Assembly: GCA_009746045.1 (NCBI GenBank)
Contig: RPFO01000080.1
Span: 12,008,802 to 12,072,801, forward strand
From: Mesostigma viride
Taxonomy: Eukaryota; Streptophyta; Mesostigmatophyceae; Mesostigmatales; Mesostigmataceae
Direction of reading: 5' to 3'
DNA: 64,000 nt
Shown here: positions 15,645 to 59,218 of the stretch, one piece after another
Layout: each line of letters starts with the position of its first letter
Numbering within the stretch: position 1 is the stretch's first letter
The notes under the pieces: model-generated
What the model saw: only the letters and a program-made list of their open reading frames with translations
Told to the model about the DNA's origin: nothing
Databases searched by the model: none
Made by a program: the position numbers and the translations under genes

Positions 15645-16430
15645 ACTTGGCAGAAGGCGCGCTGGGCTGAAGCTTCTGTTCGTGGCATCTGGCCATGAAT
15701 GACCCAGCTCATGTACAGCTGCGAGAATCAGCGAGGAAGGGGCGGATCTTGGTCCGCCACCAGCAGGGATCAGCTGTTTGTGATGGGTGGATTGCATCCC
15801 TTGTTCATTTGCTGTGAGGCTTTTCCCGGTACCATGTCTTTGGCGGGGGTCATAGTGTTTGTGTGCATTGTTATGTCATGTCAACCCTTGTATTGTACTG
15901 TCTTTTTCGTTTTTGTCTTCATTTCTGCTGGTTTCTGTGTAACTTGTTTTTGTTGTTTTTATTGTTTTTGTTGCTTTCGTGTTGTTTGATGTTCCGTGTG
16001 ACCGTTGTGTCCCATTCACCAACATCAGGCTCTGACGCCACATAGAGTACCAGGTGCGAGTGAGACCATCTGCTTTATGTATGCACGCCCAAGCTTCTAA
16101 ATGTTTTTTCATTAAAGTATTTTCATCAAGTTTTATTTTAACACGTGGTTTTTTACAACACGATACATCGCGTTGTAGGGTTAGAACGCGATGTATCGCG
16201 TTGTAATCTGACACGTGGCGGACACAGTAGATACGAGATTTTCGGTCTGAAACTCGGTGGACGGACTCCTTACATCCCATAGAATTCAAGAAAAAATCCT
16301 GGTATTTTTTGTATTTTTTGTGACAGCTGCAAACAAAAATGTACAACTGAAATCAGGCATTTTCGCGGGACGAAGGTGAAGACGACGGCGATGGCGGCAA
16401 GTAGATTAATTAACTAAGAGCTTTTTAGCG
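15645..16430. other. 3' flank of the root-cap-like gene, including paired palindromes
   Basis: No further gene is seen. Runs of TTTTGTTGTTTTTATTG at 15940-15990 look like 3' UTR. At 16142-16219 two ACACGTGG boxes flank two short palindromes built around CGATACATCG and CGATGTATCG. Confidence 0.5.
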
Positions 16431-16962
16431 TAGGTCATCAGAGTCTTTGTATCAGGGCATGCCTCGTATTTTGGACGAGATCAGACAGCGTAGGATAGCA
16501 TTTGTAGGACACCTTGCTCGCACCAGCCAGGTCGACACGGCCCTTGGTCTGGCAGGCCCCTGGGCAGCGGCTTGGCCAGCCAGGGCGGCACATTCTGACC
16601 TGGCCTGGCCCCAAGGGCATTCCCAAAAGGGTAGGGAAACATGTCGCGAACTACGTACAGATGTTGCTGGATGATCTACTGGTCCCAGCCCAGTTTGAAT
16701 ACTGCATCCACTCTCTCTCCCTTCTTTGGCGTACTGCCATGCAGAACAAGACGCGGTGGCAGAAGATTGTCAAGGCGCACACGCCCGACCCTGTCGGCAA
16801 GCCCCCTCCCCCCAAGAGGAGGAGGCGTTTTGATGAGTAGGGCAGTTAGGATTTTTCTAGACTAGGTAGATTAGCGTTAGGATAGTTAGATTACGCGGCT
16901 CTCTCCTTTCCACCACCCATCAAGGAATATGTGCTACATGATTTCCCAACGGAGGCATTAAT
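16430..16962 (+). mobile_element. 5'-truncated RT-type LINE (copy RT-A): C-terminus and 3' end
   Basis: Starts abruptly near the VGHLARTSQVD block and carries the end of the LINE polyprotein. The reading frame is broken once: the first part ends about 16620 and the rest resumes in another frame to KAHTPDPVGK and a poly-Arg end with a stop at 16838-16840. A 3' UTR of about 120 bp ends in TATGTGCTACAT, a TCCCAACGGAG hairpin and CATTAATTA. It meets the ORF1-only element tail to tail. Confidence 0.75.
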
Positions 16963-18830
16963 TATCAACATCACTCCGTTGGGAGTAGATGTAGCACATA
17001 GCCCTGAGAAGGGGCATATGGCTTTTAATACATTCTGGGCTACTTCATGCAAGGGTGGGAATGTAAGCTACCCCTGCTCTAGGTGCACCAGGGCACCCGC
17101 ACCCTCATGGTCTATCACGCTATGCCCGGGTAAGGGGGGAGCATGCCTGTGAGGGGGAAGATCATCATGGCTATACAAAAACTAGAGCGTGGCATCTCAG
17201 CAGAGAGCAGCTCTCTGCATGGGCACAGCATTACTATTTATAAAACTAGGCATCGTCTGGAGTGTGGCTCATCATAGGCACACATGTACATGATTAAATA
17301 AAGCGCGTGGCTTAGCTGGAATACAGCCTCTAGGAGGCGTACATGTACATGGCCACGGTCTATCTATTCTACACTACTGCTGCTGTATTCCCCTAAGCTG
17401 GGGTGTCTGGAGTCGCTGGGGCCGCGGGGGTCGCCTGCCAGGGCTTGTGGCCGACGTAGATGGCCGCCCCCTTCCAGTACACCGGCTGCCCCGCCTTGGT
17501 CTGCCGGAGCTGGAGGTAGGTCGGCCATAGCTCCCGTCGCCGTTGTTGCTGCGCCAGGGTCAAGTCGTCATCAAGGGTGAAGAGAGTCTTCTCGAGCCGC
17601 TTGCGGCGTCTGAGAAAAGAAATCTTGTCCGCCGGGGTCTTAAAGGTGAGAAGGAGCGGGGGCGGCCCTGCCTTACCCCGCGCGCGGGGAAGGCGGTGGG
17701 CGGCCAGCTCGATCTCACCAGTAAGGCCCATGCGATCAAGGATTTCTCTCTCAAAAGCACGCGCAAGCTTCTCGGAATTCTCACCTTCCTCCATGGCGAA
17801 GTTCTTGACAATGACGTTGAGGCTGCGCTTGGCGAGCTCGGCCTCCTTGCGGAGGTCAAGCGTCCGCCGTTGAAGCTGGGCTGCGACGGCGGAGGTGGTG
17901 GAGGTGCGGGTGTGTTGCTTAAGCATGTCCGCCCAGGTGGTGATGGGAGGAGCATCGCCGGCCAGGCCAGCCGGGGCTGGCTTGGCGGCAATGTCCTTCA
18001 CCGCCTGGGCGGTGAGGCCTGCGGTGTTCTGCAGAACCTCGATAGCAATGGCGTTGTCCTTAAGACGCTGGTCGATGTCGCGGAGCTGGGCGGTGATGGA
18101 GTCGGTGGAGGCGGAGGGGGGGGGGGGGGTGGAGGCGAGGAGGGCGGCGGTGGCGGTGGGGATGGTGGGGAGCTCAGCAGCCAGCGTGCCGCCAAGTGCC
18201 GCCACATCTGCAGCAATGGGCGTCACGTGCTGTGAGAGGGCGGCGTGGAGGTGGTGGACGAAGGTGGATTCGGTAATGGGGGCGGGGTGCAGAAGGTCCT
18301 CGGCCGAGCGCTTAGTGAGGGTAAAGAGAGCTGCGAGCTGAAGGCGGGGGCGAGACCAGCCTGCCAGGTTGGTGTCGACTGGGCGGTCTGAGACGCGGTG
18401 GGAAAACCGGCCGTCAACTCCGTTGCGAAAAAAGTGGGTGTGGAAATTGAGTTGCTGGCACAGGGCCAGCAGTGAGGCGTGTGACCCGTAGAACACGAGC
18501 TCCAGTATCTTGATGGGTGGCATGTCGAAAAAGGCAGGCCTGTTGACGTCGAAGGTGGTAAAGAGCCGGTCGACGTCGAAATCATGCTCAGACCAGCCAG
18601 GTTCGGCTGGGCGGCTGCGGTTTGGCTCAGGCGAGGCTGAAGGCGAGGCAGGAAGCCCGGGAGGGTGCTGGACGACCACCAGTGCGCGACTAGTGGCAGC
18701 ACTGCCTTCCGGCCCTGATGGCGAAGCTGCAGCCGGAGCTGCAGACGTATTTTCATTACCGAGCGCAGCCGCCAGGCTGCGTTGCGTCGAGGCGCGTTTA
18801 TTCGCCATATAGTGCGTTATAGCTTTGGAA
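16963..18830 (-). mobile_element. ORF1-only retroelement, copy A (near full length)
   Basis: Minus-strand unit: an intact ORF1 (17393-18808) followed after 430 bp of 3' UTR by the same terminal motif as the RT elements (TATGTGCTACAT, hairpin ACTCC-GTTG-GGAGT on the plus strand) and an ATAATTAAT tail. No reverse transcriptase follows ORF1 before the end. The 5' boundary is not certain; I place it just beyond the ORF start. Confidence 0.75.
17393..18808 (-). CDS. L1-type ORF1 protein (coiled coil + RRM + C-terminal domain)
   Basis: 471 residues, uninterrupted. Residues 1-60 are Ala/Ser/Pro-rich. A middle coiled-coil region (SITAQLRDIDQRLKDNAIAI, then RRTLDLRKEAELAKRSL) is followed by an RRM-like fold: LNVIVKNF as beta-1 and LLLTFKTPADKISFL as beta-3. 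A basic C-terminal domain follows (FLRRRKRLEKT, DDDLTLAQQQRRRELWP, YWKGAAIYVGHKPW). This order is that of LINE-1 ORF1p, an RNA-binding chaperone that trimerises and coats the element RNA. Four other copies in the window are broken or truncated. It ends the coding content of its element; the partner RT must come from elsewhere. Confidence 0.8.
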   Translation of the reverse strand: MANKRASTQRSLAAALGNENTSAAPAAASPSGPEGSAATSRALVVVQHPPGLPASPSASPEPNRSRPAEPGWSEHDFDVDRLFTTFDVNRPAFFDMPPIKILELVFYGSHASLLALCQQLNFHTHFFRNGVDGRFSHRVSDRPVDTNLAGWSRPRLQLAALFTLTKRSAEDLLHPAPITESTFVHHLHAALSQHVTPIAADVAALGGTLAAELPTIPTATAALLASTPPPPSASTDSITAQLRDIDQRLKDNAIAIEVLQNTAGLTAQAVKDIAAKPAPAGLAGDAPPITTWADMLKQHTRTSTTSAVAAQLQRRTLDLRKEAELAKRSLNVIVKNFAMEEGENSEKLARAFEREILDRMGLTGEIELAAHRLPRARGKAGPPPLLLTFKTPADKISFLRRRKRLEKTLFTLDDDLTLAQQQRRRELWPTYLQLRQTKAGQPVYWKGAAIYVGHKPWQATPAAPATPDTPA

Positions 18831-19362
18831 AATTATATCAGCATGTGCGTCTAAGAAAGACGAAGCGATTGTGATATTCACAGCTGAATTCGGGGCTCAA
18901 ACGTGAAAGTTATGAGCTCCGACAGCCATGGCTACCTCGTGGCTCGTGGCTCGTGGCTCGTTATAATCTCGGAGGCATGTTATAATTTAATTTAATTCAA
19001 TTTTAGTGCACACGGCAATATTGTTTTGGTCTGTCGCACAATTGCTAATGTTCTGATCAGGCACTCCGCAAAGGTGAAAACCTTTGCGTTCAGTGCCGGG
19101 CCGCGGAAAACGCGGAAAACGCGATCTGCAAATGAATCCGACCGGAATCGAACTGGGGACCTCTCGCACCAATTTTGCTGACTATAGGACGGACGTCTCC
19201 GGTTACCATGGCATCGCCAACTTACACCTACAGTCATCCGCAAAAGTTCTCCTGTCCGGGGAGTGATGCTAATGTGTTTGCATGCAATTATTCTGCTCGC
19301 TCAGATGCAGGATTAACTTCGGCTTGATTTCTTAATTACCCTCGATCGTGTGCAGGTCATAG
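18831..19362. other. Non-coding, contains another retroelement 3' end
   Basis: At 18968-19005 the stretch CGGAGGCATGTTATAATTTA followed by more TTTAA repeats matches the 3' end of the RT-type LINE at 59188-59220, so a mostly deleted plus-strand copy ends here. The rest has no coding signal. Confidence 0.45.
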
Positions 19363-19472
<110 letters not shown>

Positions 19473-19508
19473 CTTGCGCGTCATGCGCAAAGGCATGCCA
19501 CGGAGTAC

Positions 19509-20949: not shown

Positions 20950-20951
20950 GC

Positions 20952-22081: not shown

Positions 22082-22261
22082 GTACTACTATGCTAATCTC
22101 ATTAGAAAAATAAAAATAAGTGCAGGTCATACGGCTAACCTTCCTCTAGCTTTCGTAGCCATGGCTGAATTTTGCTTCCAGGTACTGAACACGGCCTGCA
22201 CCTCGACCCCCGAATTGATGCATTGCCGCCACCGCGCCTTTGTCAAGGTATATATATTCGG

Positions 22262-24190: not shown

Positions 24191-24238
24191 TCACTGTCAC
24201 TGTGCACAGCAGGGACGGCATCGTCTATGTGGGTGCCA

Positions 24239-40276: not shown

Positions 40277-40499
40277 GTTACGTGGCTAGATGGCCAGCAA
40301 ACTGTAGTCTACGCTGCCCAATAATATCAGCCACACATGCTTGCCAAACTTAATCACACACGGAGGCACCACCGATTGGGGGGTGGTGTCCTTCATTACT
40401 GTCTGCCACCTATCTTTACGCGTCATTTGCCTCCATTAATTAATTAATTAATTAGGAACATCACTCCGTTGGGAGTCAATGTAGCACATATCCCTGAGA

Positions 40500-41457
40500 A
40501 AATGGAGTCAATGTTAAGCAGCACGCCACCTCCACCACCTCCGCCGTCGCCGCCCAGCTTAAGCAGCAGACGCTGGACCTCCGGCGGCGAGGAGGCGCCG
40601 AGCTCGCCAAGCGCAGCCTTAACGTCATAGTCAAGCACTTCGACCCGCTGCAGGACGAGACCCCCGAGACCCTTGCCCTGGCGTTTGAGAACAAAATCCT
40701 TGTCCCCATGGCTATCACTGGTGAAGGGCAAGCTAAGCTTGTCCCCCTTGCTCCTCACCTTTAATTGACACCATGGCGGATAAGATGGAGTTCCTCAAGT
40801 GTCGCAAGCGGCTTGGGGGGACCGCCTACACGCTGGCCCCACGACTTGACCTTGACGCAGCAACAACGGCGACGGGAGTTATGGCCCGAACTACCTCCAG
40901 CTTCGGCAGACGGCGGGGCAGATCAAGCCGGTCTACTGGAAGGGGGCGGACATCTACGTCGCCCACAAGCCCTGGCAGGCGACCCCTGCCGCCCCAGCCA
41001 CCCCAGCCACCCCAGCCTAGGGAATATATAGCAGTAGTGTAGACTAGAAAGCTTAGTGACGTGGCCATGTATCGGCCTACGTGATGGGCCCACACCCGCC
41101 CTTGCAATAGCCGTAGCAATTTCGAGTCATGCTTTGCCCATGCAGGGAGTTCCCTGCTGAGATCGAGGCCATGTGTACCCTAGCTATAGCCTAGCCACAT
41201 ACCTTCCACCCTATATGTCATGCAGGCCTTCTAGGCCCTCTCCTCAAGCCCCCCCTGGGTGCCTGTGCTTGTTTAGGAGGCATGAACCATCATGGAGGTG
41301 CAGGTGCTGCACCTAGTGCACCCAGAGCAGGTGATAGTTGTACATCCTACACCTGCAGGTTGTCGCCCCGATTGTATTACAAACCCATAATAGATGCCCC
41401 TTTCTCAGGGCTATGTGTTACATATGCTCCCCACGGAGTTATGATTTTAATTAATTA
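40500..41457 (+). mobile_element. Nested ORF1-only retroelement (plus strand, 5' truncated)
   Basis: Bracketed by ATCCCTGAGA (40490-40499, 41458-41467). Carries ORF1 from about the RRM (RSLNVIVKHFD equivalent) to QQQRRRELWP, broken by an internal stop/frameshift near 40760, then a 3' UTR ending GGCTATGTGTTACATATGCT, hairpin and TTTTAATTAATTAA. Pseudogene-grade coding. Confidence 0.85.
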
Positions 41458-41692
41458 ATCCCTGAGATCAAGGGGCATATGGCTTTTAATACATCCTAGG
41501 CTACTTCATGCAAGGGTGGGAATGTAAGCTACCCGTGCTCTAGGTGCACCAGGGCACGTACCGGCACCACCATGCTGTCTCAGGTTCAACCCGCCGAAGG
41601 GGGGGATCCTGGCACGGGGGAGGAAGATCATCATGGCTATACAAGGGCTAGGGCATGGCTTCTCGACAGAGAGCATCTCTCTGCATAGGCAT

Positions 41693-42247
41693 TAATTAAT
41701 TAATTAATAAGCACGTGACTGCGTCACGTGGGTGCCAATACAGAGTAAAGGAACCTTCAACCCTATATACACAGTGAGAAGGAGGGAGGGCGCCCTAGCT
41801 TCTCTCACTGCCGCAGGTGGGCAGGCCACAGAGCGCTCTCTCCACGGCATGGTGCCGGGGCGCAACACTGTGGGTGCAATACAACCAGTGCAATACCATA
41901 GGTAGGCTGACGCATAGCTTATGCTACAAATGTGAGGTGGGCTCAAGACGTCGGCTAATTAAGGCGCAAGCTGATGGCCACAAGGTGCCAGAGCTAATTG
42001 AAGGTACTATAACGCTGTGCGCTAATATCGTTTCAAGTGCTGTAATGCCTAAGCTATCCCATCATCGATTGCCCCCATCTAGACAACTAGCTGGAGTGCT
42101 CTATCCCGGGGAAGCCCGGGGGGGCTTCCACAGTTTCTTGTTGACGTAGAGGTCCCCGCCCCGCCAGTACACTTGGGGCTTCTCGGGGTTGGTCTTGTGG
42201 CGGATGTAGTCGGGCCACTGATCGCGGCGTTGCTGCTGCTGGGCTGG
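41693..42247 (-). mobile_element. Nested divergent ORF1-only retroelement (minus strand, 5' truncated)
   Basis: CTGCATAGGCAT flanks it (41681-41692, 42248-42259). The minus strand reads AQQQQRRDQWPDYIRHKTN, VYWRGGDLYVNKKLW, a clear variant of the ORF1 C-terminus. Its 3' end has a different but perfect hairpin (CACGTGAC-GCA-GTCACGTG) before the TTAATTAA tail. Confidence 0.8.
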
Positions 42248-42430
42248 CTGCATAGGCATAGCATGGCTAAATTCTTAATGCAACATCCATGGGGGTCCCA
42301 TTATAGACATAGCGTGGCTAAATGTTGAAGGCATCCGTCCATGGATGGGGGCCATTATGGGCGCACATGCGCGGGGGCCACATGATAGGCTAAGCCTTAC
42401 TAATCTACACTACTGGTATATATATTCCTA

Positions 42431-43345
42431 TCTCCCTCGGTCGCCTCCGTTCAATCTCCCGCCGCATTCCCTGCTCGCGTCATCGATAAACACCAGAAAA
42501 CCTACGCGGGTATTCTGCACACGGCTGATTGGATTGCTCTTTTCGCGGACCTCAACGCCCAGGGACGTGCGTGGCTGTTCTCGCTTTCCTTGCGGAGTGT
42601 GGGCTCGGCGTACCTTCGTGCTCTTCCCATGGCCCCCCCATTCGCCTTGGCTCCCAGCCACTACTCGGTGGCGCTCCGGCACCAGCTATTTGCCCCGCAG
42701 CCTCTTGTTCCGGCCGGGCGGCCTTGTGGTAGCTGTAGGCAGCCGCTGGATCCCACGGGGACTCACTACCTTGCCTGCATGGGGGGCCAACAGAATCAGA
42801 ATTGGTATTTGTATTTGCACACTGTCCTCCTGACGGTGGTGCTCGCCATGATTCGGTCGGTTTTCCCCCACGCGAACATCCGGTCCGAGGATGCGGATGG
42901 CGCTGCCTTCTATTCCCCCAACCACCGGCCTGACATCGTGGTGCTGGACTTTGAGGGGGGTGGCCGGCATCTGCTTATTGACGTTTCGGTGGCGCGGCCC
43001 TTGGCTCTTAGCCACGTGGCTGGGGCCTCCCTCACGGCAGGTTACACGGCGGACCGGGCGGAGCGGGCCAAGCTCCTGGCCTACGGCGACGTCGGGCACC
43101 ATCGTGTGGTGCCCTTCGTCCTGGAGGAGTTTGGGGCCATGGGGCCCCTGACCTCCGCCTTCTTCAAGGAGTGTTGCCGGCTCCGGGAGGACCGGCTGGA
43201 CCTGGAGGGCCAGCGGGCCCCATGGTCGGCGCGGACCTGGACGTCATATTGGCGTCAGCGCTTGTCGGTGGCGCTGACTCGGGCCATGGCTGACATCATG
43301 CTCCGCCGTACGCGGGCTGATTTTGCGGTGCAGCAGGGCTATTAG
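42431..43345 (+). CDS. LINE polyprotein C-terminus: CCHC finger + restriction-like endonuclease (5' truncated)
   Basis: Open from the 5' truncation to a TAG at 43343-43345, about 304 codons, no internal stop. It reads AAFPARVIDKHQKTYAGILH, then a CCHC knuckle (CGSCRQPLDPTGTHYLAC), then RPDIVVLDFEGGGRHLLIDV. A CCHC motif followed by a PD-x(n)-D segment is the arrangement of restriction-like endonucleases at the C-terminus of R2/R4/CRE-type LINEs, which nick the target for reverse transcription. No start codon belongs to this fragment; the RT domain is missing. Assignment to a particular clade needs the RT. Confidence 0.7.
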   Translation, partial: SPSVASVQSPAAFPARVIDKHQKTYAGILHTADWIALFADLNAQGRAWLFSLSLRSVGSAYLRALPMAPPFALAPSHYSVALRHQLFAPQPLVPAGRPCGSCRQPLDPTGTHYLACMGGQQNQNWYLYLHTVLLTVVLAMIRSVFPHANIRSEDADGAAFYSPNHRPDIVVLDFEGGGRHLLIDVSVARPLALSHVAGASLTAGYTADRAERAKLLAYGDVGHHRVVPFVLEEFGAMGPLTSAFFKECCRLREDRLDLEGQRAPWSARTWTSYWRQRLSVALTRAMADIMLRRTRADFAVQQGY

Positions 43346-43481
43346 GTTCCTCCCGTTAGGCGTTTCCATTGGTCTTATCGTAGTATAGAGCTTTGACATG
43401 GCTCTGTATATAGGTTTATAGCTGGGCGTTTGCTTTGGTTTGAGTGATTTCACTCTGCTGTAAGTAATTATATTTTTAAAA
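42431..43481 (+). mobile_element. RLE-type LINE copy 4, 5' truncated, nested in copy D
   Basis: TATATATTCCTA lies at 42419-42430 and 43482-43493. It carries the C-terminal third of the LINE protein and a 135-bp 3' UTR ending TAAGTAATTATATTTTTAAAA. This is the best-preserved copy of the family in the window. Confidence 0.87.
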
Positions 43482-43492
43482 TATATATTCCT

Positions 43493-44335
43493 AGTCTGAG
43501 GTGGCAGGAGGGGGCTGCCAGGGCTTGTGGTCAACGCGGATGACCGCCCCCCTCCAGTATACCGGCTTCCCCCTTGCGCTCTGCCGGAGCTGAAGGTAGG
43601 TCGGCCATAGCTCGCATCGCCGCTGTTGCTGGGCCAGGGTCAAGTCGTTGTCCAGCGTGAAGCGAGTCTCCGAGAGCTTCTTGCGGCATTAATTAAGGAA
43701 CGCCAGCTTGTCCGCCATGTACTTGTCCGCCATGTACTTAAAGGTGAGGAGCACGGGTGCCGGGCCAGCCTTCCCCCGCGCGCAGGGAAGGCGGACAGCC
43801 GACATGTCCAGCTCACCAGTGAGTGACATGGGGGCAAAAATGGCGCGCTTAAATGCCTCAAGAAGGCTCGTGGAGGTCTCACCTGCCGGCTGGTCGAAGT
43901 GCTTGACGATGACATTGTGGCTGCGCCGGGCGATGTCGGCTTCCTCGCGACGGTCGAGGGCTTGTTGCTTGAGTTGTGCCGAGATGGTGGAGGTGGTGGA
44001 GGTGGTGTGCTGCAAGTCCCGGCCCAGGTGGAGGGAGCATCGCCGGCCGGGCCAGCAGGTGCCGGCTGGGCGGCGATGTCCTTCACCGCCTGGGCGGTGA
44101 GGCCGTCGGTGTCATGCAAGCCCTCAAGGGCGGTGGCGGTGGCTTGAAGGCGGTGGTCGAGGTCGAGGAGCTGGGCTTTGATGTCGGCAGTGGAGGTGGA
44201 GGCGGCGGCGGTGGAAATGTGAGGAAGTTCAGCAGTCAGCGTGCCACCCATTGCTGCGACGTCGGCAGCAAGGGGGGTCACGTGCTGCTGAAAGGCTTCC
44301 GTGAGGATGGAACGGAGGTTGCCTCCATGTTACAG
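43493..44335 (-). pseudogene. ORF1 of copy D, interrupted
   Basis: From the 5' side: HVTPLAADVAAMGGTLTAEL, a coiled-coil, RSHNVIVKHFDQPAGETSTS, LLTFKYMADK, then a stop at a TTAATTAA (43689-43696), then the C-terminal part RRELWPTYLQLRQ in the following frame to 43493. A 15-bp duplication doubles YMADK. The same TTAA site carries a transposon in the copy at 56768. Confidence 0.75.
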
Positions 44336-44345
44336 ACAAACCAGA

Positions 44346-45197
44346 GGGTTCCCCGGGCGTGAGCCCGCCCCGGCGAGGGTAGCACATGTCCATGCCTAGC
44401 CTATCGCGGAAGTCCACGGAGGGCAGCCCGGCCGGCGCGCGCAGCGGGGGGCATGCCACGTGAGGACACACTCTCGGGCTGGCCGGGCGGGCTTGGTGCC
44501 ACTGGCTAGTCTATCTGATGTATATACCTGATCTGTGCGGGCCAGCCGGCCAGGTGCCCGGCTAGGCTCAGGCGCCTGTGCCTAAGAAGGTGGGAAACAT
44601 ATGGCGCTTGGTATGGTAAGGCCAATGCGTTACACAAGGCTCGATCCACTGGAAATCAACGTGGCTTTCGGCGATTACTGCATGGCAATCGGCCGCCGCT
44701 TTGTGCATCGACCTGTGAAGCACAACCTCAGAACTTACAGCGAGATTGAATCAGCCGCTAGGATTCAATGCGCCTGCATCATCCTCCCAAAGTTTCCCAA
44801 AATAGCACTCTCAATCGCTAGACAATGGAGCGAACAAGGTATGACCTTCAACATTGGTCGGTGAACCAGACATGCGAACCAAACATGCATTGGTCGGTCC
44901 CATGCATTATAGATACAGTTCTCCTTCTCGAGCCCAACCTGCCTAGCCACCCCCCAAAACAATGGATATCCTATCACGATAGAGAACTGCGTATTATCGC
45001 CAATGTCACTCTTGCATCTTCAACCAGTCAGGCGGGTGGTGCCTCTGCAACCAGTCAGGGTGATGGTGCCTCTAGAACCAGCCAACCGGATGATGATATC
45101 CTTCATTGTCAACCTGAGGACCCCCCGCGTCGTCATTCGTCAAAATCCACCCCCCGCGTCTTCACAATCAAGCCCCGGGCCACGTCTTCAACCTGCC
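44346..45197. other. Unassigned sequence with one small open frame
   Basis: 44601-44864 encodes 87 residues (MALGMVRPMRYTRLDPLEIN...) of normal composition, preceded and followed by nothing I recognise. The rest shows no gene or repeat signal. Confidence 0.3.
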
Positions 45198-45451: not shown

Positions 45452-46237
45452 TTACGCCGAGACTCCCCCCGAGATGCGCACGTTGGCGCCGGTCGTGTAG
45501 CTGGAAGCGTCGGACAGCAAAAACACGATGGTGTCGGCCACCTCCTCCGGCTCGGCGCTGCGCCGAAAGGGGAGGTTCCCCTTGGCCACACTCGCGTTGA
45601 TCTTCTCATCTGGCGCCATGCTGGTACGCGTGAGCCCGGGCGAGACGCTATTGATGCGGATACCTAGTGGGGCCAGCTCGGATACCAACCCGGCCATCAT
45701 GCTGTCCAGCGCGGCCTTGCTCATCCCGTACAGCACGGGCTTGCCCTTGGCGGCCGACACGCTGGACAGGTTGACGATCGCGCCCTTCTTCCCCCGGGCG
45801 CGCTTGAGGAACTCGGACGTGCACAGCAGCGAGCCCAGCACGTTGGTGCCGAATATCTCTTGGTAGTCGCGGACGACGTCGATCTCGAGCAGGTTGGACG
45901 TGTTGGGCCCGAGGATGCCCGCGTTGTTGACGAGGTAATAGGGCGAGTCGCCGTAGGTGGACTCGATGGCGTCAAACAACGACGCAACGCCCGACTGCGA
46001 GGACACATCGGCCTGGACGGCAACAGCATCCCCACCAGCTTCCTTGATCTGGGACACAACCGCGTCCGCCGACTCGGCCGACCCACGGTAGTTGACGACG
46101 ACTTTGCATCCTTCCCTGGCAAGCGCGAGACACACGGCTTTGCCAATACCGCGGGATCCGCCCGTCACGAGTGCCACCCGATCTTTCCCAAAAACACGCT
46201 TGCGGCCGCCGCCATTCTCTTCTGACTTGGACGCCAT
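45452..46237 (-). CDS. Short-chain dehydrogenase/reductase, 3-oxoacyl-ACP reductase-like
   Basis: Single exon, 261 residues from the Met at 46237; an upstream in-frame Met at 46288 would add 17 residues with no targeting character, and MASKSEENGG looks the better start. Classical SDR signatures: TGGSRGIG cofactor motif at residues 25-32, NNAG at 104-107, catalytic Ser at about 159 (NLSS) and YGMSK (Tyr170, Lys174), SPGLTRTSM, and a GG near the C-terminus. Length and order match FabG-type enzymes that reduce a carbonyl with NAD(P)H. No transit peptide, so probably cytosolic; the true substrate cannot be read. The 3' flank is a G-rich repeat. Confidence 0.9.
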   Translation of the reverse strand: MASKSEENGGGRKRVFGKDRVALVTGGSRGIGKAVCLALAREGCKVVVNYRGSAESADAVVSQIKEAGGDAVAVQADVSSQSGVASLFDAIESTYGDSPYYLVNNAGILGPNTSNLLEIDVVRDYQEIFGTNVLGSLLCTSEFLKRARGKKGAIVNLSSVSAAKGKPVLYGMSKAALDSMMAGLVSELAPLGIRINSVSPGLTRTSMAPDEKINASVAKGNLPFRRSAEPEEVADTIVFLLSDASSYTTGANVRISGGVSA

Positions 46238-48234
46238 AACAGAATTTACTTGTGTAGAATCGTCAGCATCGAAGAAGCAAGTCGCCAAGCTGCACCGCCC
46301 AGTTTATCTAGCTGTGCTACCTAATGATACCGTTACTTGCGTCCTACCATCCTATCCCCGACAGGCCACGATAACCCCAGCCAGACCAACGCATGCCGAT
46401 GCGATAGTCGCGAAACGAAACGTGGTCGGCGAGCGTTTTGCAACGCATCTGCACCTTCTGCAACAAAGCGCCCGCGATGGTTGAGCGAATTTTTATCCCC
46501 TGATAAGTCGCACGCCCCTGATTAGTCGCAGCCAAAATCGAAATGGCAGATGCGCACGTCGGTATCACGAAGGCTGAGCGACGCAGGGAAAAGATCCATC
46601 AATTTTGTTTGGTACCGTACCAGCCAGGCAGCCACCAGGTCTCCCAACCCGTGTGCTTGGGTTGCCACCGTACTGCCCAATTTACGCGGAACGAGCTCGC
46701 ACGATTTCTCAAGTACGGACAGCGTTTTCCATCAATAATTAAGTAAGGCACCATGCAGAATTAATATGCAAAAATACTGCCGAAGAGGAGCAGGGAAATT
46801 TGAAACGAACTCGGGCAGATCAATTTATTTACTCGAGTAACTCGAGTTGACGCTTGCTGATGAGCCGACGTGGAGGCGCCCAAGCTTTCAATTGGGCACT
46901 AAGGCCGTGTAATTCCCGGAATTGAAAGGGGTCTTTTATATTTTCTCTCATCTACTGTATTTGCAGTGGGACTTTCGGTAGTGTATGTGTTGTGCCGAGA
47001 TTTAACATGAACAAAGCGAGTGCCGTTCATCAGAAATGACTGGCTTAGCTGCATGTCATTATTGTAGGCGTCGGAAAGCTGAACAAGAGTTAGTTGCCTG
47101 TAAAGGCGGTAGGCCAACGTTTGCTGGACCCGGCGAAGTGGATGACGAGGAGCAATCCAGATGTATTTGGTGCTTTTCGTGCATTTCGAAGCATCTTGAA
47201 GGCTCAAGTCCAATATTCTTGCAGACGAAGTCAGCAAGCCCGCAAGGGTGGTTATGTCCACGGTAAGCGGCCGTTGCAACCTGAGCGAGTTGCGGTTCTC
47301 ATTCAACGTGTATGCTGGTTCATACCGTAGCCGACAGTGCCCCGTATTTGCTTGTTTTTATGCTAGCTTGTCACGCGCGTCGGACCACGCTTTGTTGTAG
47401 GCCTATAGCTAGCATTTGCTGCGGTGCTGTGCGCTTAGGCAGAGCGGCTGTTGTGCCGTGGTTGGTGGCTGGACTAGCCCGTGCTCTACTTCTTTTCCCA
47501 GCGTTGAATTGCATGACCTCAGAGCTCAGAGTGCATGCCATTGCGAGGCTGTCACTTCAATGGTGGAAGAGCACCGGAGTCGGTCTGCCTGTTGCTGGCT
47601 TCCCCTCAACAGTCGTTCAGCCCGACTTCCTTTCTGGGTCGCAGGTAGCGTGTTGATGACTTGGTTGAGTTGGTAGACCACTGCTGGTCCCACACTTGGG
47701 GCATCTCTGCCTTGTGGTTGGCCATCCGCTCTTTTCTGCAACGCGTTACTCTGGCACGTGGGCTGACGCCTTTACGTAAAGGCCCTCGTCGTTGTCATGT
47801 GAACCCACCTTCGCCACGGTTTTGTGCTTCGTGTGAACTCACTCTACACACTCTACGCCGCATGATGCCATCGTGTGAACACGCACTCGACACCGTTGTC
47901 GCATGATGCCCTCGTGTGAACACGCACTCGACACCGCGCGGTCGCTTGTTGTAATTTGGGTCAAAGTTCATGCTTGCATTGCGTGAGACAAATAATGCAG
48001 GAAATGGGCTTTATTACTGCCATCTTGTGAACACACACTCGGCACCGTTGTCTTGTGCTGGCAGCTGCCGCGGGTGCTGCCCCTGCGGCCGGTGCCGCCC
48101 CAAGACGCTGGCCCACGGGAGCGCCGCGCCGACCCTCCCTACAGCTGGCAGCTTGCACGCGGGAGGGGCAGTTGTCAGCCGCCACTTTGCTCATGCGGCT
48201 GACAGCACGGTGCAGGTGGGCCCGCAAGCAACAC
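46238..48234. other. Intergenic, no convincing gene
   Basis: Short frames only (for example 46543-46746). A GTGTGAACACGCACTCGACA block is repeated with small changes around 47870, 47917 and 48028. The first 150 bp are the 5' flank of the dehydrogenase gene. Confidence 0.5.
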
Positions 48235-50003: not shown

Positions 50004-53000
50004 ATGCAGGGCGGGAGAGGGAGGCGCCAGCCGCCACCTGGCACCCTGGCGACCACGCATGACATCATCAGCGCTGCCGTGGCCACCAGCCCGACCAGCC
50101 CTCCACGCCATTCCTCCTCTCCGAGAGCCGGCAGGTCAAAGAATGGAGCGTGGTCGGCAGGAGCAGCCGTCTCCCCCCCCCGCGGTCTAGCCCATGAAAG
50201 GACGGATGAGATGCCACCCAGCCGTGCTTTGCCACCCAGCCGTGCTTCGCCACCCAGCCGTGCTTTGCCAAGGGACGTTGCCGCCGCCCCCCCCCTCGTA
50301 GAGGTGTCCCCCCGCCGGTCCCCGCGGTTGCGGCGCAGCAGCCGGGAGGGTATGGGGGGAGGCGGTGGCGGGGCAAGTTCAATTGCAATTGGCGATCAAG
50401 GCGGAAAGGGGGGCGGTCTGGCACGCGGGAGCACACGTGGGGACACGTGTGCGGATGCCAGCATGGGGTATGGCGGTTTGGTAAGTGCAGATGCCAGCAT
50501 GGCAGCGGGCATGGTTGCCCCTTGGAGGAGCATGACAGCAGAAACAGAGGCAATGGGAGACAAAGAGCCGGCTCTGCTGGCGGGTGATGCCGTCGGTGGG
50601 CCATTGAATAGTCCAGCCTTTTCGCAGCACGCAGAAACAACACGGGCGTGTGCCAAGGGGAAAGAAGGGGCCCGGGAGCAGGAGGGGTGCAGCACGCCCC
50701 AGGCAGGACACCCCAGCTATACGCGCGAGGGGGGCAGCCCGTTGGCGCCCTTAGACTCCTCGAGGAGACGGATATGCAGTGCCAAGGAGAAACAAGGGGC
50801 CGGCGGGGAGGAGGGGGCGAGCCCACCAGAGGTTGGAGGCCACAGCTGGGCAGGGGGCATGCGCGCGCACAAGCGGCGGCGCGTGTGCGTGCCGTACCGG
50901 AACGTGGGGGAGGATGCGGCCCTGCTGTCTCGCGGCGACGTGGGGCGGGAGGGTGACGTGGCATCGAGTGTTGCAGCTTACGATGCCGCTGCTCGGTCGG
51001 GCGTGGCTGGCGGCTCGTGCGCAGGAATGTGCAGAGGCGCGGCGAAAGGGCGCGTGCGCGGGGACGCCGGGGATCCTGGGCGCGTCCACCGCGTGGGTGG
51101 CTCGGAAGCACCCGATGCGACGGGGGAAGAGCCAACGGCAAGGGAGGAGTTGGGGAGGGAGGAGGCGGGGGGTGAGCGGCCGGTCACAGGCAAGGACATG
51201 GTCCCCGCGTCGAAGGCAGCGCGTGATGAGCAGGTTGCTCAAGGGCCAGGCATGCATTCTGTCGGCTCGGGGGAGAGGGCCCGCGGTGGGGCGGTGGGAG
51301 CCAGCGGCGTCACTGGTGGCAGCACAGGCGGGCGTGGCGAGGGTGGGCGGGTGTCGGGTGTCAGCAATGGCGTGACGCGAGACAGCAGCGGGTGCGTGGC
51401 GGATGGCGCGGGCGCTGGTGCGTGCGTGGCGGCGGACGGCACTGGCCACGTGGGGGATGCCATGTTGCATGGCGCAGTGCGGGGTCGGTTGGACCGGTGG
51501 AATGCGGGGAAGCTGCGCGTGCCAACCGTGTCTTGTGCAGAGAAGCAACCGTCAGCCGCGGAGGAGCACCAGTTTGGCGCGGAGAAGCCGCTCGTGGCCA
51601 ATGCCAGCAAAGGGGATTGCGCGGGTGGGGGCGCCGTGAGTGAGGCAGCTATGGGTGGGGTTGCTGTTGGTGGGGTTGCCAGCACGCCTGGGCCTGCAGG
51701 TGGGGTCTCCGGTGGCGCATCTCCCCCACGCCACCCCCGAGGGCGCGCGGTTGCGGGGGGCAGTGTCGCCCCCCGTGTGCGCACCCCTGAATCCTTGGAC
51801 AAGTTCCGACTGGGAGGGGCCCCGCTGCCGTTACTGCTGCCTGTGGTGGTGCCACGTCAGCAGAGTGCTGCCCCGCCGCGGACGGCAGTTCTAGGGCAAG
51901 TCTTGGGATGCGAAGCGTCGCGGGAGGGACAAGCGGTGGGACGGGAACCAGCCGAGGACGCGAATGTGTCGGGAGCAGAAGCAACAAGGGATGCATCCGC
52001 TGGCGTTGGCCTGTCGGGGAGGAGGGGAGGCCCCCATCGTGCTGCCGGCCGGTCGGCCTTTCTCGCGGCACGGCGGCGGCTGGACCAACTGGGGGGGGTG
52101 GCTGGTGGCCTGGGTGGCAGTGAGGACGGTGGCGGCGATGGCAGCGGGGGCGTTGGTCAGGATGGGGCAAGGGGTAGAAGCGGCAAGCACGTCGTGCGCT
52201 TGGATGCGACGGCACTGGTGTCGGCTGCAAGGGGCCGGCTGCCAGGTCGGGTGGCGCCAGGACGGAAACGGGCGAAGGGGAGAGCTGCAGGGTCCCGTAC
52301 GGCGCCAGCAAAGCGGGCTAGGAAGAACACGGGGAATGTGGTCTTGGCGGCAAAGGGGAGGCAGACGAGCCGAGGACCCACGTCTATGCTGGCAGACGTC
52401 ACAGCACCGCCGGCATTACCGTCAGGGGATCTCGGCGCGCGGTGCGTGCAGACGGGGATGACAGGGGACGTCGTGGCAGGGAAGAGGGCGGGTGGAATTG
52501 TGACGGGACATGGGGTGGGGAGTTTGGTGGAAAGGGGGGAGGGAAGCTGGTGGGGAATGCAGCAGATGATGTGGCGGGAAATGCGGCAGGCGCCAGTGGG
52601 GCGGGTCCTGCTGCGGGCCCCACATTGGCGGCGCTGGGTGCGGTGCGCCAGCAGCATCGACGCGTGCTGTGGACCCCCCCCGTGTCCCCTTTCGGCCTCA
52701 TCCAGGAGACGCTGTACAGTGACCCTTGGAAGCTGCTGGTCGCGTGCATGCTGCTGAACAAGACGGCCGGGCCGCAGGTCCACCGCGTTATTTGGAGGCT
52801 GTTTGAGCTGGTCCCGACGCCCCAGGCGGCCGTGCTGACGCCGCTGGCGGCGATCGCTGAGGTCATCCGGCCGCTGGGCCTGTTCAACGTGCGCGCGCGG
52901 GGCATCGTGCGCATGTCTCAGGAGTATCTGTACAAGGACTGGGTGTCGCCCAGGGAGCTGTTCGGGGTGGGCAAGTACGGCGACGACGCGTACGCAATAT

Positions 53001-54571
53001 TCTGCCAGGGGCGGTGGCGGGAGACAGCACCAGAGGACCACATGCTGAACAAGTGGGTGGCGCGGGTGGTGACTGTATGTGAATGAGCACGTATAGCGAC
53101 CATCTGATGACCTATGATGACGGTATGACGACCATTTCATGACCTTTGCTGAGCGAGTGGGTGGTACCGCACAGCGGTGACCCTGTGCTGACTGCGTATA
53201 ATAAATAGTAATAGTAATGTGACGAGTAGGATAATAAGAGTAATGACAGCAATAGTAATATAATAAGAATGATGATAATATAATAAGAATGATGATAATA
53301 GGGGGTTGTTAGAGTTATGACAGCAATAGTAATATAATAAGAATGATGATAATAGGGGGTTGTTAGAGTTATGACAGCAATAGTAATATAATAAGAATGA
53401 TGATAATAGGGGGTTGTTAGAGTTATGACAGCAATAGTAATATAATAAGAATGATGATAATAGGGGGTTGTTAGAGTAATGACAGGAATAGTAATATAAT
53501 AAGAATGATGCTAATATAATAAGAATGATGCTAATATAATAAGAATGATGATAATAGGGGGTTGTTAGAGTAATGACAGCAATAGTAATATAATAAGAAT
53601 GATGATAATTGGGGGGTGTTAGAGTTATGACAGCAATAGTAATATAATAAGAATGATGATAATAGGGGGTTGTTAGAGTAATGACAGCAATAGTAATATA
53701 ATAAGAATGATGATAATTGGGGGTTGTTAGAGTTATGACAGCAATAGTAATATAATAAGAATGATGATAATATAATAAGAATGATGATAATTGGGGGTTG
53801 TTAGAGTAATGACAGCAATAGTAATATAATAAGAATGATGATAATATAATAAGAATGATGATAATAGGGGGTTGTTAGAGTAATGACAGCAATAGTAATA
53901 TAGTAAGAATGATGATAATAGGGGGTAGTTCTGGCCTGCGCTGGTTGTCTCCTTGATAGGGGATTGTTAGATTTGGGGGGGGGTAGGTGGGGAAGGGGGG
54001 AGGGGAGGGAAGCGATGCAGCATACATAACTGTTTCGGTGGACAAATTCTGTGGTGTTGTGGGTCCGAGCGTTGGTTGGTTAACTTGGTTTGCTGGCAAA
54101 AATTGGCTGTATGGCTGCGGATGAGCCACATCAAATAGTGCAGCGTGCCTCCCATGCCTGTTAGTTTTTGTCTGAAAAAAATCGTCGGAAGACCATCGTA
54201 ATTTTTTGAATGCAATCATGTCGCATCCCCGATTTCTGGCCTGCGCTGGTTGTCTCCTTGATGTCGCATCCCCGTGCTCTCATACACCCTGTGGTGAGGG
54301 GAACTCGTTGCCGGATGCCCTCTTGCCTGGAAGAAACGTGTGGACAGGTGGCGGGGAGGGGGGAACCGGATGGCCCATTCCTATGCCTGTGCGGTCTACG
54401 GGTTGTCCAAATTTTTAAAATGGGTTGGTTGATTTATTCCTAGAGCCTGCTGTCCTCTGCCATCCGCGCAGATACCACGAATGGCTCACGCGGACGCAGG
54501 GGCGCGGCTGCGGCTACTCCAGGGATGTGCTGGCATCCCAGGGGCCGTCCCAGGTCGCGCACGACTCATGA
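50004..54571 (+). CDS. MBD4-like HhH-GPD DNA glycosylase (multi-exon)
   Basis: A long disordered N-terminus (Gly/Ala/Arg-rich, with a basic NLS-like cluster KRAKGRAAGSRTAPAKRARK at about residue 754) precedes a compact glycosylase domain in another frame: WTPPVSPFGLIQETLYSDPW, KLLVACMLLNKTAGPQV, PLGLFNVRARGIVRMSQEYL, the hairpin GVGKYGDDAYAIFC and PEDHMLNK. The Asp of PEDH is the catalytic Asp of the family (Asp560 in human MBD4). The frame change lies between about 52440 and 52660 and is either a short intron or an indel. A GTGGGT donor after 53052 and CGCGCAG acceptor before 54472 join phase 2 to a last exon starting YHEWLTRTQGRG, restoring LNKYHEW; stop at 54569-54571. Expected role: excising T or U from G mismatches in the nucleus. 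Confidence 0.8.
53250..53928. repeat. AT-rich 54-bp minisatellite inside the glycosylase intron
   Basis: Unit GGGGGTTGTTAGAGTTATGA CAGCAATAGTAATATAATAA GAATGATGATAATA, 54 bp, about 10-12 copies, some with an extra 20-bp ATAATAAGAATGATGATAAT sub-block. Lies within the intron 53053-54471. Confidence 0.93.
53929..53955. other. 29-bp dispersed sequence, copy 1 (27 bp)
   Basis: TTCTGGCCTGCGCTGGTTGT CTCCTTG interrupts the minisatellite; ATAGGGG lies on both sides (53918-53924, 53956-53962). Confidence 0.7.
54232..54260. other. 29-bp dispersed sequence, copy 2, with 14-bp flanking duplication
   Basis: ATTTCTGGCCTGCGCTGGTT GTCTCCTTG sits between two copies of ATGTCGCATCCCCG (54218-54231, 54261-54274), exactly as an insertion with target-site duplication would. 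Confidence 0.8.
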
Positions 54572-55315: not shown

Positions 55316-57254
55316 TGGCGGGATATTGGCGGCACCGCCTCAAGCATAACCGGGACCCGCTGCTGAAACCGGTGCTCAAAGCCGCCCTTGTGGAGGCCTA
55401 CGCACACGCTCAGGACGCAGAGGCGGCCAAGAGCATCGCGGATGCCAATTGAGGCCTGCCAAGCTCGCAACCAGGGCAAGGAAAATGTGGTACCACCTCG
55501 ACCGGCTTGGCGGCCGGGGGCAGCGCACGCCGGTGGAGCACACGGGAGACGGCGCGGCGCCGGTCAGGCTTGACCGCTGGTTGGCCCACAACGTTTCCTT
55601 GACAGGTGGGGCTCGCCCCCCCCCCCCCCGCGCGACGGCCGCCTGTCTCGGTGTTGCTGGACCCCCCCCTCCGCCTGCGGCACCCTCCTCGGCCGCGGAT
55701 TACCAAGTCCCCGCCTTGAAGGAGGGTTGCCTTGCCAACAACAACGTCGTCCCGCCCCTTCACTTTGAAGGAATTGGACGGCGCCCTTGCTCGCTTGCGA
55801 TACGACGCGGCGGTCGGTGCCGACCACCTTTCTGCCGAGCTGCTGAAGACTCCTGACCCGGCGGTGCGGGAGCTCCTGCTGGCGGTCGGCAACCGTGTTC
55901 TGCTCTCTGATGAGCCTCTGCCTGCTGAGTGGCAGACGGCCATCCGAGTCATGCTGTACAAGAAGGGCTCTGCTGCCGACCCCGGTATAATCGGGGTGTC
56001 TGCCTCCAGAGTGCCACGCTGAAGGTAGCTGGATTGACGGATTTTATCCCCTACAGGGATTCACGCCTTAAGTTGGGTTGGCTTAAGTTGTCACGCCTTA
56101 AGTTGGGTCAAATTGGGTTTCGGCATTCCAAGTTCAAAGTAGTTCAGCCGAATAGTATGTTTGAGTATCTTTAGTTCAAATTAGTAGAATTTAGTAGAAT
56201 CATTCACGCCTTTCCTTGCACATCCTTAACGTGAAAGAGCACGGCGGGGTTAGACCTGGTTACCGCCTTGCCGACCTGATTTATGCGGATGATACCGCCC
56301 TCATCGAGAGCCCCGAGCACATTCAGACCTGGCTGGACTGCCTGGGCCTGGAGGCGCGGGCGGTGGGGCTGGAGATTAGTGTCAAAACTGAGGCGATGGT
56401 GATAGGGGCATCCAGTAAACCACCGCTGCCGCGCCTGCTCGACGGGACGGAGGTCCCGTTCCGCGACCGCTTCAAGCTGTTGGGGAGCTGGCTTCCTGAC
56501 ACCGCCGACGATGTGGACACCCGCATCGGCCTTGCCTGGGCCAAGCTCCGTTCGCTCACACCCTACTGGCGCTCGAAGGGCCTGGACGGGCACCGCAAGC
56601 GCATGCTCTTCAAGGTCCTCGTCCTCACGGTGCTCACGTATGGCGCCGAGGCGTGGACCCTCCCACCCAAACTGGCAGCTCGGCTCGACGGCACAGTTTA
56701 CAGGATGCTCCGGCAGGTCCTTAATGTAGGTTTTTCCGAGCGTCCGTCATCAGAGTCTTTGTATCATTAATTAATTAATTAATTAAAATCATAGCTCCGT
56801 TGGGAGCATATGTAACACATAGCCCTGAGAAAGGGGCATCTATGGGTTTGTAATACAATCAGGGCTACAACCTGCAGGTGGAGGATGTACAACTGTCACC
56901 TGCTCTGGGTGCACAAGGTGCACCTGCACCGCCATGATGGTTCATGCCTCCTTAACAAGCACAGGCACCCAGGGGGGGCTTGAGGAGAGGGCCTAGAAGG
57001 CCTGCATGACATATGAGGTGGAGGGTATGTGGCTAGGCTATAGCTGGTGTACACATGGCATCTCAGCAGAGAGTAACTCCCTGCATAGGCATCGCATGGC
57101 TAAATTCTTAATGCATCATCCATGGGAGGTCCCATTGTAGGCTGGGCGCGGCTAGATACTGAAAGCATCATCCATGGGGGCCATTATGGGCGCACATGCG
57201 CGTGGGCCACTTGCAAAGGCTAAGCCTATCTAATCTACACTACTGGTATATTCC

Positions 57255-58690
57255 CTAGTCTGGAGTGGCAGGAGGGGCCTGCCAGGGCTTGTGGTCAACG
57301 TGGATGACCGCCCCCCTCCAGTATGCCGGCTTCCCCCCTGCACGCTGCCGGAGCTGAAGGTAGGTCGGCCATAGCTCGCGTCGCCGCTGTTGCTGGGCCA
57401 AGGTCAAGTCGTCGTCCAGCGTGAAGCGAGTCTCCGAGAGCTTCTTGCGGCATTTAAGGGGACTCGTCACCAAAACACCAAAAAATCAATAAAAATTCAA
57501 AACTCGCATTAAACCTATGCAAACAGTGCCCAAAAGTGATTGGGGACACAAAGTAGCATTTATGACGATTTGTCGTGCACTTACTAGGGGTACTACCCCT
57601 GGCATGTGGCTAAAAATAGCACAAGACGCTAAACCGTTCTTGCCGCCCAACGGTCAATAGGAGCATCTGTTTGACCTGCCCATACATTCCAAACGAGTTC
57701 CCCCTCTCCTCGACCGTTTGAGCTACTAACATGGGTCGGCGGGGCAGGTTTGTGAGAGTTCTTAATTTTCCCGCCAAAATACGGTCTTTTTTCGCGGGAA
57801 AATTAATAACTCTCACAAACCTGACCCGCTGAACCATGTTAGTAACTCAAACGGTCGAGGAGAGGGGGAACTTGTTTGGAATGTATGGGCAGGTCAATCA
57901 GATGCTCCTATTGACCGTGGCGTGGCAAAAACGGTTTAGCGTCTTGTGCTATTTTTAGCCAAATGCCGGGGGTAATACCCCAAGTAAGTGCACGACAAAT
58001 CGTCATAAATGCTACTTTGGGTCCCCAAACCCATTTGGGCATTGTTCGCATAGGTTTAATGTGAGTTTTGAATTTTTATTGATTTTTTGGTGTTTTGGTG
58101 ACGAGTCCCCTTAAGGAACGCCAGCTTGTCCGTCATGTACTTAAAGGTGAGGAGCACGGGTGCCGGGCCAGCCTTCCCCCGCGCGCGGGGGAGGCGGACA
58201 GCCGACATGTCCAGCTCACCAGTGAGTAACATGGGGGCAAGAATGGCGCGCTTAACTGCCTCAAGGAGACTCGTGGAGGTCTCACCTGCCGGCTGGTCGA
58301 AGTGCTTGACGATGACATTGTGGCTGCGCTTGTCGAGTTCGGCCGCCTCGCGAAGGTCGAGGGCTTGTTGCTTGATTTGTGCCGCGATGGTGGAGGTGGT
58401 GGAGGTGGTATGATGCTTAAGCAAGTCCGCCCAGGTGGAGGGAACATCACTGGCCGGGCCAGCAGGTGCCGGCTGGGCAGCGATTTCCTGCACCGCTTGG
58501 GCGGTGAGGCCGGCGGTGTCATGCAAGCTCTCAAGGGCGGTGGCGGTGGCTTGAAGGCGTTGGTCGAGGTCGAGGAGCTGGGCTTTGATGTCGGCAGTGA
58601 AGGCGGAAACGGCGGTGGAGGTGGAGGCGGCGGCGGTGGAAATGTGAGGAAGTTCAGCAGTCAGCGTGCCGCCGATTGCTGAAATGTCGG
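57255..58690 (-). pseudogene. ORF1 of copy B, split by a foldback element
   Basis: Minus strand, 5' part: LAADISAIGGTLTAELPHIS, coiled coil, RSHNVIVKHFDQPAGETSTS, LLTFKYMTDKLAFL; after the insertion: KCRKKLSETRFTLDDDLTLA and WPTYLQLRQRAGGKPAYWRG to a stop at 57255-57257. Without the insert the frame would be continuous (FL-KCRKKL). Confidence 0.8.
57458..58110. mobile_element. 653-bp foldback MITE at a TTAA site
   Basis: TTAA flanks both sides (57454-57457, 58111-58114). Ends GGGGACTCGTCACCAAAACA and its inverted copy; the two halves are inverted repeats of about 310 bp around a short centre near 57780 (CGCCAAAATACGGTC). No coding capacity. TTAA duplication points to piggyBac-type mobilisation, though the GGGG start is not typical. 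Confidence 0.85.
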
Positions 58691-59218
58691 CAGCAAGGGG
58701 GGTTTGTATCATGGCATGCCTCGTGTTTCGGACGAGATTAGGCAGCGTAGGATAGCATTTGTAGGACACCTTGCCCGCACCAGCCAGGTCGACACCACCC
58801 TTGGTCTGGCCGGCCCCCAGCGGCTTGGACAGCCAGGGCGGCACATTCTGACCTGGCCTGGCCCCAAGGACATTCCCAAAAGGGTAGGGAAACCTGTCAC
58901 CAACTACGTTCAGATGTTGCTGGACGACCTAGTGGTCCCAGCCCAGTTTGAGCACCGCATCCACTCTCTCTCTCCCGTCTTTGGACTGCCATGCAGGACA
59001 AGACGCGGTGGAAGAAGATTGTCAAGGCACACACGCCCGACCCTGTGGGCAAACCACCTCCCCCCAAGCGGAGGAGGCGTTTTGATGAGTAGTGTAGGTA
59101 GGATTTTCTAGATAGAGTTAGGACAGTTCGATCACGCGGCTTCCTCCACCCCATCCATCATGAAATATGTGCTACATGACCTCCCCACGGAGGCATGTTA
59201 TAATTTAATTTAATTTTA

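Follow-up and report, generated by a model that had tools for sequence, protein, structure and literature searches.

How can a LINE (long interspersed nuclear element) that encodes no reverse transcriptase (RT) form a family of its own? The question is raised by a stretch of 64,000 nucleotides (nt) from the green alga Mesostigma viride (contig RPFO01000080.1), hereafter the window, in which elements carrying only a first LINE open reading frame (ORF1) lie among elements carrying an RT. A sequence-only reading of the window had taken the two for the parts of a two-part LINE system, with a logic like that of the mammalian element HAL1. We find a discrete family of ORF1-only copies that has fixed ends and, in the copies examined, no endonuclease-RT (EN-RT) frame. 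Very probably these copies are a half-LINE, that is, a non-autonomous LINE lineage that keeps a 5′ untranslated region (UTR), an ORF1 of the type of the L1 ORF1 protein (L1 ORF1p) and a 3′ recognition hairpin, and has no EN-RT.

Copies of both kinds had been said to end in one motif, TATGTGYTACAT. Six exact sites in the window fit the elements (16928, 17000, 40490, 41412, 56821 and 59166), and with two mismatches allowed the window alone holds 9 sites against 4.4 expected. Across the 439.9-Mb assembly (2,243 contigs), the motif occurs at 15,114 sites, against 56 for the reversed pattern. The published description of this genome puts its repeats at 66.02% (PMC6947507). Close study covered the window and, on contig C1, 20 stretches of 10 kb each, which together make 264 kb and are partly N. 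The C1 stretches were picked for holding motif sites, so that the sample is non-random and enriched for these elements. Together with 30 shorter loci, it yields 74 distinct motif sites. From the bases immediately upstream of the motif, 44 were assigned to the ORF1 type and 28 to the RT type, with 2 left unclassified.

An ORF1-only family with fixed ends

The ORF1-only unit is about 2.0 kb long and comprises a 5′ UTR of about 160 bp, an ORF1 of 471 amino acids (aa), here called ORF1-B, a 3′ UTR of about 430 bp, the hairpin, and a short-repeat tail. The window copy at 16963–18969 (minus strand), which served as the alignment reference (2,000 positions), is full-length: it has the common 5′ end and a short TTAA-type tail, and is flanked by the target duplication CGGAGGCAT at 16950 and 18970. 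Its terminal motif and hairpin, located by the motif and hairpin analyses, occupy 16967–17000 (minus strand). As first reported, its ORF1-B is intact, an open frame at 17393–18808 (minus strand); the copy itself reaches about 18969 and not the 18830 then given. It sits in the 3′ end of a 5′-truncated RT element at 16427–16962 (plus strand; RT ORF C-terminus, 3′ UTR and hairpin; reference positions 3316–3842 of 3868), which resumes at 18970.

The 5′ end is common to the family, with ten other copies beginning within reference positions 2–12 of 2,000. Aligned blocks run from the 5′ end to the 3′ UTR in nine copies (the window copy and those at loci L031, L032, L034, L038, L042, L043, L046 and L050). 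None of these nine copies of the 264-kb sample has an RT block between the two. Some bear insertions, L034 holding a piece of the second 3′ class described below, and the N-terminal coding region is partly too divergent for DNA alignment.

Across the genome, the 3′ motif stands 455–485 bases downstream of a 16-mer near the ORF1 C-terminus at 1,457 places (716 + 741), a figure that counts linked sites only and is not a fraction of all ORF1-B copies. The reversed-pattern control gave 0. Among the loci on hand, overlapping loci being counted twice, the motif lies within 900 bases of the 16-mer at 21 of 29 sites, 20 of these at 461–478. The other eight sites are at four loci whose 3′ UTR is interrupted or truncated (L031, L035, L042 and L050) and four short loci (L002, L013, L026 and L027). 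The earlier claim that ORF1 runs directly into a 3′ UTR, with no RT, thus holds in the nine copies and at the linked sites, although several of the coordinates and assignments that came with it do not. One point weighs on the other side: the 1,457 links count linked sites only, and an element with both ORF1-B and RT may exist elsewhere. With more than 1,000 half-LINE copies, and an intact frame in at least one of them, this unicellular green alga offers a tractable natural experiment.

With the intact 471-aa ORF1 as a protein query, and scoring limited to the 7,996 candidates with most words in common, we obtained 50 matches at E ≤ 0.001, all of them Mesvir1 gene models of M. viride. Separately, three gene models (P0009, P0015 and P0024) join ORF1-B to host domains (PF01381/PF08523, PF00171 and PF13640/PF03171, respectively); these joins may be fusions or annotation artefacts.

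Pfam and PDB sequence searches with ORF1 gave no L1 ORF1p match, and a full-length model was unusable (predicted local distance difference test score, pLDDT, 40). The C-terminal 167 residues (296–462), modelled from ten sequences that include the RT element's own ORF1 (ORF1-A, below), reached pLDDT 80. The model consists of a long helix, a beta-alpha-beta-beta-alpha-beta domain and a small C-terminal domain. In a PDB structure comparison, its twelve best matches are all human LINE-1 ORF1p (best E 3.6e-7), the best with a TM-score of 0.56 by query length. The C-terminal half of ORF1-B, that of the intact window copy included, is predicted from this model to fold like human L1 ORF1p, as a helix (coiled coil), an RNA recognition motif (RRM) and a C-terminal domain (CTD).

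Codon comparisons suggest that the half-LINE ORF1 is under moderate purifying selection. The comparisons took in 230 pairs of ORF1-B copies or fragments, each pair sharing at least 100 codons; the pairs are non-independent, and some fragments come from one copy. Differences at the three codon positions over all pairs are 0.27, 0.21 and 0.34, and a third-position excess is seen, for example, against an L043 fragment (0.040/0.040/0.164). At synonymous divergence (dS) of 0.4–0.8, the median ratio of nonsynonymous to synonymous divergence (dN/dS) is 0.48 (107 pairs). Several values weigh against selection. The median over all 230 pairs is only moderately low (0.51); the 21 pairs with dS below 0.15 have a median of 0.62 and a maximum of 1.32; and the L038 comparison has no third-position excess, dN/dS between the window copy and L038 being 0.91. 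The ratio is raised because decay after insertion adds to it.

Such values could also be read as those of a passive parasite, whose ORF1 protein is unneeded and whose frames are open merely through youth. Several sampled copies are split by frameshifts or contain stops, as this explanation would have it, and it also accommodates the moderate ratios, that against L038 among them. We nonetheless consider it unlikely, in view of the lower ratio among well-diverged pairs and the third-position excess. Furthermore, divergent copies share the half-LINE 3′ UTR, so that their divergence probably postdates the loss of the RT. An ORF1 kept in an element that borrows its enzyme, as the half-LINE would be, bears on the question of what makes LINE ORF1 proteins act on the RNA that encodes them.

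A 3′ hairpin in both elements

The shared 3′ end folds into a hairpin of ten pairs, TACAT being paired with ATGT(A/T) and CTCC with GGAG. The CTCC..GGAG hairpin noted earlier is indeed paired, but is only the tip of this longer structure, and part of what had been called three variable bases covaries. Covariation was assessed on 25 distinct ungapped sequences, which represent 53 of the 74 sites; the filter that defined this set dropped other spacings and ends without near-CTCC/GGAG letters, and was blind to the two covarying pairs. In these sequences, 91.6% of hairpin cells are paired, against at most 55.5% in slid registers, and 21 cells are changed on both sides, against 8.1 in shuffles. Relatedness of the sequences weakens the shuffle test, while the slid-register control retains that relatedness. 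Pair 13–29 is G-C throughout the 22 RT-type ends, whereas the 31 ORF1-type ends have A-U (18), C-G (6), U-G (3) or G-U (2), with 2 unpaired. The comparison indicates that one 3′ RNA hairpin is common to both elements and covaries between them.

Three observations stand on the other side. Pairs with change on both sides number 2, against 1.9 in shuffles, which is no excess. A U-U mismatch stands at pair 15–28 in 5 of the 22 RT-type ends. The tails differ as well: among the recognised repeats (TTAA-, AATTC- or AATTT-type), ORF1-type sites have mostly the TTAA type (24/44) and RT-type sites mostly AATTT (22/28).

Both elements are flanked by target duplications. The earlier reading had reported these in the window, where CGGAGGCAT, ATCCCTGAGA and TTTGTATCAT bear it out, and the wider sample confirms them. 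Duplications of at least 9 nt flank 14 of 26 ORF1-type copies and 7 of 23 RT-type copies; when flanks were exchanged between copies, the mean was 0.68 of 49 copies (maximum 4). They are 9–14 nt long in the ORF1-type copies and 10–16 nt, some including tail bases, in the RT-type copies, and they begin with AT in 10 of 14 and 4 of 7 cases, respectively. The 5′ truncation reported earlier is likewise seen, as variable 5′ ends among copies. Target duplications together with variable 5′ truncation are the marks of target-primed reverse transcription. A number of insertions lie within older copies of the half-LINE and RT families. In a separate observation, ORF1-type insertions in the window (16950 and 40490) and at L013 and L045 sit in the 3′ end of older copies of these families, for which self-targeting and mere abundance are both possible explanations.

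In the mechanism that best fits these observations, the EN-RT protein of the RT-bearing LINE would bind half-LINE RNA via the shared hairpin and insert it in trans by target-primed reverse transcription, and the half-LINE's own ORF1 protein would coat that RNA. Such coating would explain why ORF1 is kept under selection. Alternatively, the half-LINE might be moved by another RT in the genome, with the shared hairpin an ancestral relic. Divergent RT copies do exist (e.g., in L044–L046), and the two types differ in their main tails, as just described. This alternative is improbable in our view, since changes between types affect both sides of the hairpin and yet leave most of its pairing intact, and since the target duplications of the two types are alike in length and AT start. 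The best-known ORF1-only LINEs are mammalian, and mammalian L1 can use poly(A) RNA generally. The algal partner appears to use a specific hairpin, which makes the dependence of the half-LINE on it directly testable.

The probable partner LINE and its ORF1

The RT copies of the window had been described as having no ORF1. They are 5′-truncated, and longer RT elements own an ORF1 of 391 aa (ORF1-A), open in many copies, so that RT elements lacking ORF1 are rejected as a class. Locus L047 holds an RT element inserted in an ORF1 element; upstream of the EN-RT frame of this RT element, the last part of a further ORF is seen. Used as a query, the 54-aa tail of this upstream ORF had 357 candidates at first look. 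Scores were listed for 150 of them, and 30 of those listed fall within an open frame that is exactly 397 codons long (counted by eye). Loci L052 and L053 are 99.5% identical from nt 292/293 on, with no match before that, and this abrupt start locates the 5′ end of the RT element. L051 is another 5′-truncated copy, uninformative on this point. The element is about 5.1 kb long, with a 5′ UTR of about 260 bp, ORF1-A, about 80 bp, the EN-RT ORF, a short 3′ UTR and the hairpin; this layout is a composite of L052 (5′ part) and L047 (3′ part). The EN-RT ORF encodes about 1,160 aa, read across one frameshift in L047, and its halves match Exo_endo_phos (E 8.4e-06) and RVT_1 (E 1.6e-23) in Pfam. The RT half structurally matches both R2 and L1; seven outside homologues were listed, all weak (best 29% identity). 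The partner is therefore a two-ORF LINE with its own ORF1 and EN-RT, not an ORF1-less half.

An element with both ORF1 and RT, as the sequence-only reading proposed to look for, has thus been found, but its ORF1-A differs from the ORF1-B of the half-LINE. Judged from alignments, the two elements have homologous 5′ UTRs and distantly homologous ORF1s. Local alignment of the 5′ UTRs gives a score of 65, which none of 1,000 dinucleotide shuffles reaches (maximum 53); across 11 copies, scores are 64–86. Over 146 aa, ORF1-A shares 28% identity with ORF1-B (E 7e-8, single comparison). When two ORF1-A proteins were scored with an ORF1-B profile, they reached 26.5 and 30.8 bits, whereas the highest of 500 shuffles was 9.5 bits. 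Two results stand on the other side: a profile-profile comparison of ORF1-A with ORF1-B by hhalign, from shallow alignments, was negative (probability 2%), and the 3′ UTRs of the two elements have no match except over about the last 40 nt.

Homologous 5′ UTRs and a shared 3′ hairpin are what chance internal deletions of full ORF1+RT elements would also leave behind. This origin for the ORF1-only copies is very improbable: the ORF1 of the RT element is a different one, the 3′ match is confined to the terminal stretch, and the direct ORF1-to-motif link recurs at fixed spacing at 1,457 places, a fixed structure that largely refutes it. A truly two-part system, in which the ORF1-only element would supply the RT element with the ORF1 protein it needs, is hardly credible: 24 of the 25 RT-type copies with a placed 5′ end, both window copies included, do begin at reference position 1043 or later, in the EN-RT region or beyond, and hence show no ORF1 (the 25th is the reference, L047, itself without most of ORF1-A), but the RT element has its own upstream ORF, read in two copies and recurring in the 397-codon frame, and at 12 places the ORF1-A tail lies about 2.5–2.8 kb upstream of a listed RT match on the same strand (pairs picked by eye; four further pairs are wider apart). 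With RT copies 5′-truncated and longer ones carrying ORF1-A, the system consists of a half-LINE and a two-ORF LINE rather than of two dependent halves.

The likeness to HAL1, by contrast, stands up, given a discrete ORF1-only family with a fixed 5′ end, the 1,457 links, the target duplications and the predicted L1 ORF1p-type fold. HAL1 of mammals is described as non-autonomous, with ORF1p only and an autonomous LINE partner (PMC5753468). The algal half-LINE likewise has ORF1 only, no EN-RT and an autonomous LINE partner, with which it shares 5′ UTR homology and the 3′ hairpin, and its ORF1-B is predicted to have an L1 ORF1p-type fold. The analogy supports the view that it works like HAL1; the likeness is one of structure, and carries no claim of L1-clade descent. 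There are also differences. The host is a green alga, the half-LINE and its partner have a specific 3′ hairpin in common, and the partner's ORF1 is only distantly related to that of the half-LINE. L1 and HAL1 tails are poly(A), whereas the algal tails are repeats of 4–5 nt.

Two other known systems are comparable. HeT-A of the Drosophila telomere, found with TART and TAHRE, is a gag-only LINE using RT from elsewhere, and resembles the half-LINE in that reliance; unlike it, the algal insertions have target duplications and lie inside a large contig (0.08–2.8 Mb of the 14.3-Mb C1). Pairs of a LINE and a short interspersed nuclear element (SINE) share a 3′ tail, as the half-LINE and its RT partner match over about the last 40 nt, a hairpin. 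In contrast to a SINE, the half-LINE encodes a 471-aa protein and shares the LINE's 5′ UTR. A narrow literature search on ORF1-only non-autonomous LINEs returned no paper, and was too narrow to claim anything unpublished.

A second hairpin class and other features of the window

Eight sites in the 264-kb sample end in another hairpin sequence, CACGTGACGCAGTCACGTG, with a TTAA-type tail (window 41712–41730; L034, L036, L039, L040 and L041). The window site belongs to a divergent ORF1 copy, ORF1-C, at 41693–42247 (minus strand). This copy had been counted in the TATGTGYTACAT class, which the 3′-end comparison rejects. Four of the eight sites share the 3′ UTR of the ORF1-C copy, and the other four share a different upstream sequence; in two of the latter (L041, and L039 at 5291) a divergent RT C-terminus lies upstream, 45–48% identical to the first RT. 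Only about the last 45 bp are common to the two groups. The class is perhaps a second matched half-LINE/RT pair, and is a lead only because ORF1-C stands directly upstream of the CACGTGACGCAGTCACGTG hairpin in a single copy. More broadly, there might be a long-lived ORF1-only lineage with a selected RNA-binding protein and at least two branches, hairpin-matched to different RT-bearing LINEs; on the sequences compared, we hold this to be conceivable, if rather doubtful. If true, half-LINEs would switch to a new RT host by acquiring that host's hairpin.

The remaining ORF1-type copies of the window are nested or interrupted. The 3′ end of one lies at 40434–40499 (minus strand; motif at 40490), and its remaining 3′ UTR follows at 41458–41691 (minus strand; reference positions 1961 to 1738 at 41460–41691). 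It is split by a 5′-truncated ORF1-type copy at 40500–41457 (plus strand), which is flanked by the target duplication ATCCCTGAGA at 40490 and 41458, and within which an ORF1 piece was recovered at 40513–40981 (plus strand). The span 40434–44345 had been read as a single copy, and this is not established. The ORF1 search did find an ORF1 block there, at 43494–44395 (minus strand), an ORF1-B fragment of a second subfamily with an uncertain 3′ end; its membership in the copy ending at 40434 is likewise not established.

A 5′-truncated RT element begins at 55330 (55330–56766, plus strand), in blocks 55330–56026 and 56215–56766 (reference positions 1636–2335 and 2792–3343) with an internal gap between them. 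It is interrupted by an ORF1-type copy at 56768–58702 (minus strand; target duplication TTTGTATCAT at 56758 and 58703) and ends at 58703–59222 (plus strand) with its 3′ UTR, hairpin and AATTT-type tail (reference positions 3335–3868; motif at 59166). The inner copy is of ORF1 type, as had been stated, but is not uninterrupted; its ORF1 was recovered in two parts (57258–58700, minus strand), and a palindromic insert at 57454–58114 splits it. The arms of this insert are 326 nt long and 93% complementary, with TTAA at both ends, as in a miniature inverted-repeat transposable element (MITE).

Elsewhere in the window, about 9 kb of tandem repeats (4556–13968) are open in all six frames, with ORFs of 2,936–3,062 codons. 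A 251-aa ORF at 42590–43345 has, by eye, a PD..D..LIDV pattern like that of PD-(D/E)XK nucleases, and its sole Pfam match is weak (DUF3090, E 0.25). Two likely host genes are also present: a short-chain dehydrogenase at 45452–46288 (minus strand; Pfam E 2.4e-49) and a gene with an HhH-GPD domain at 52442–53086 (plus strand; Pfam E 1.2e-05, just below the curated cut-off).

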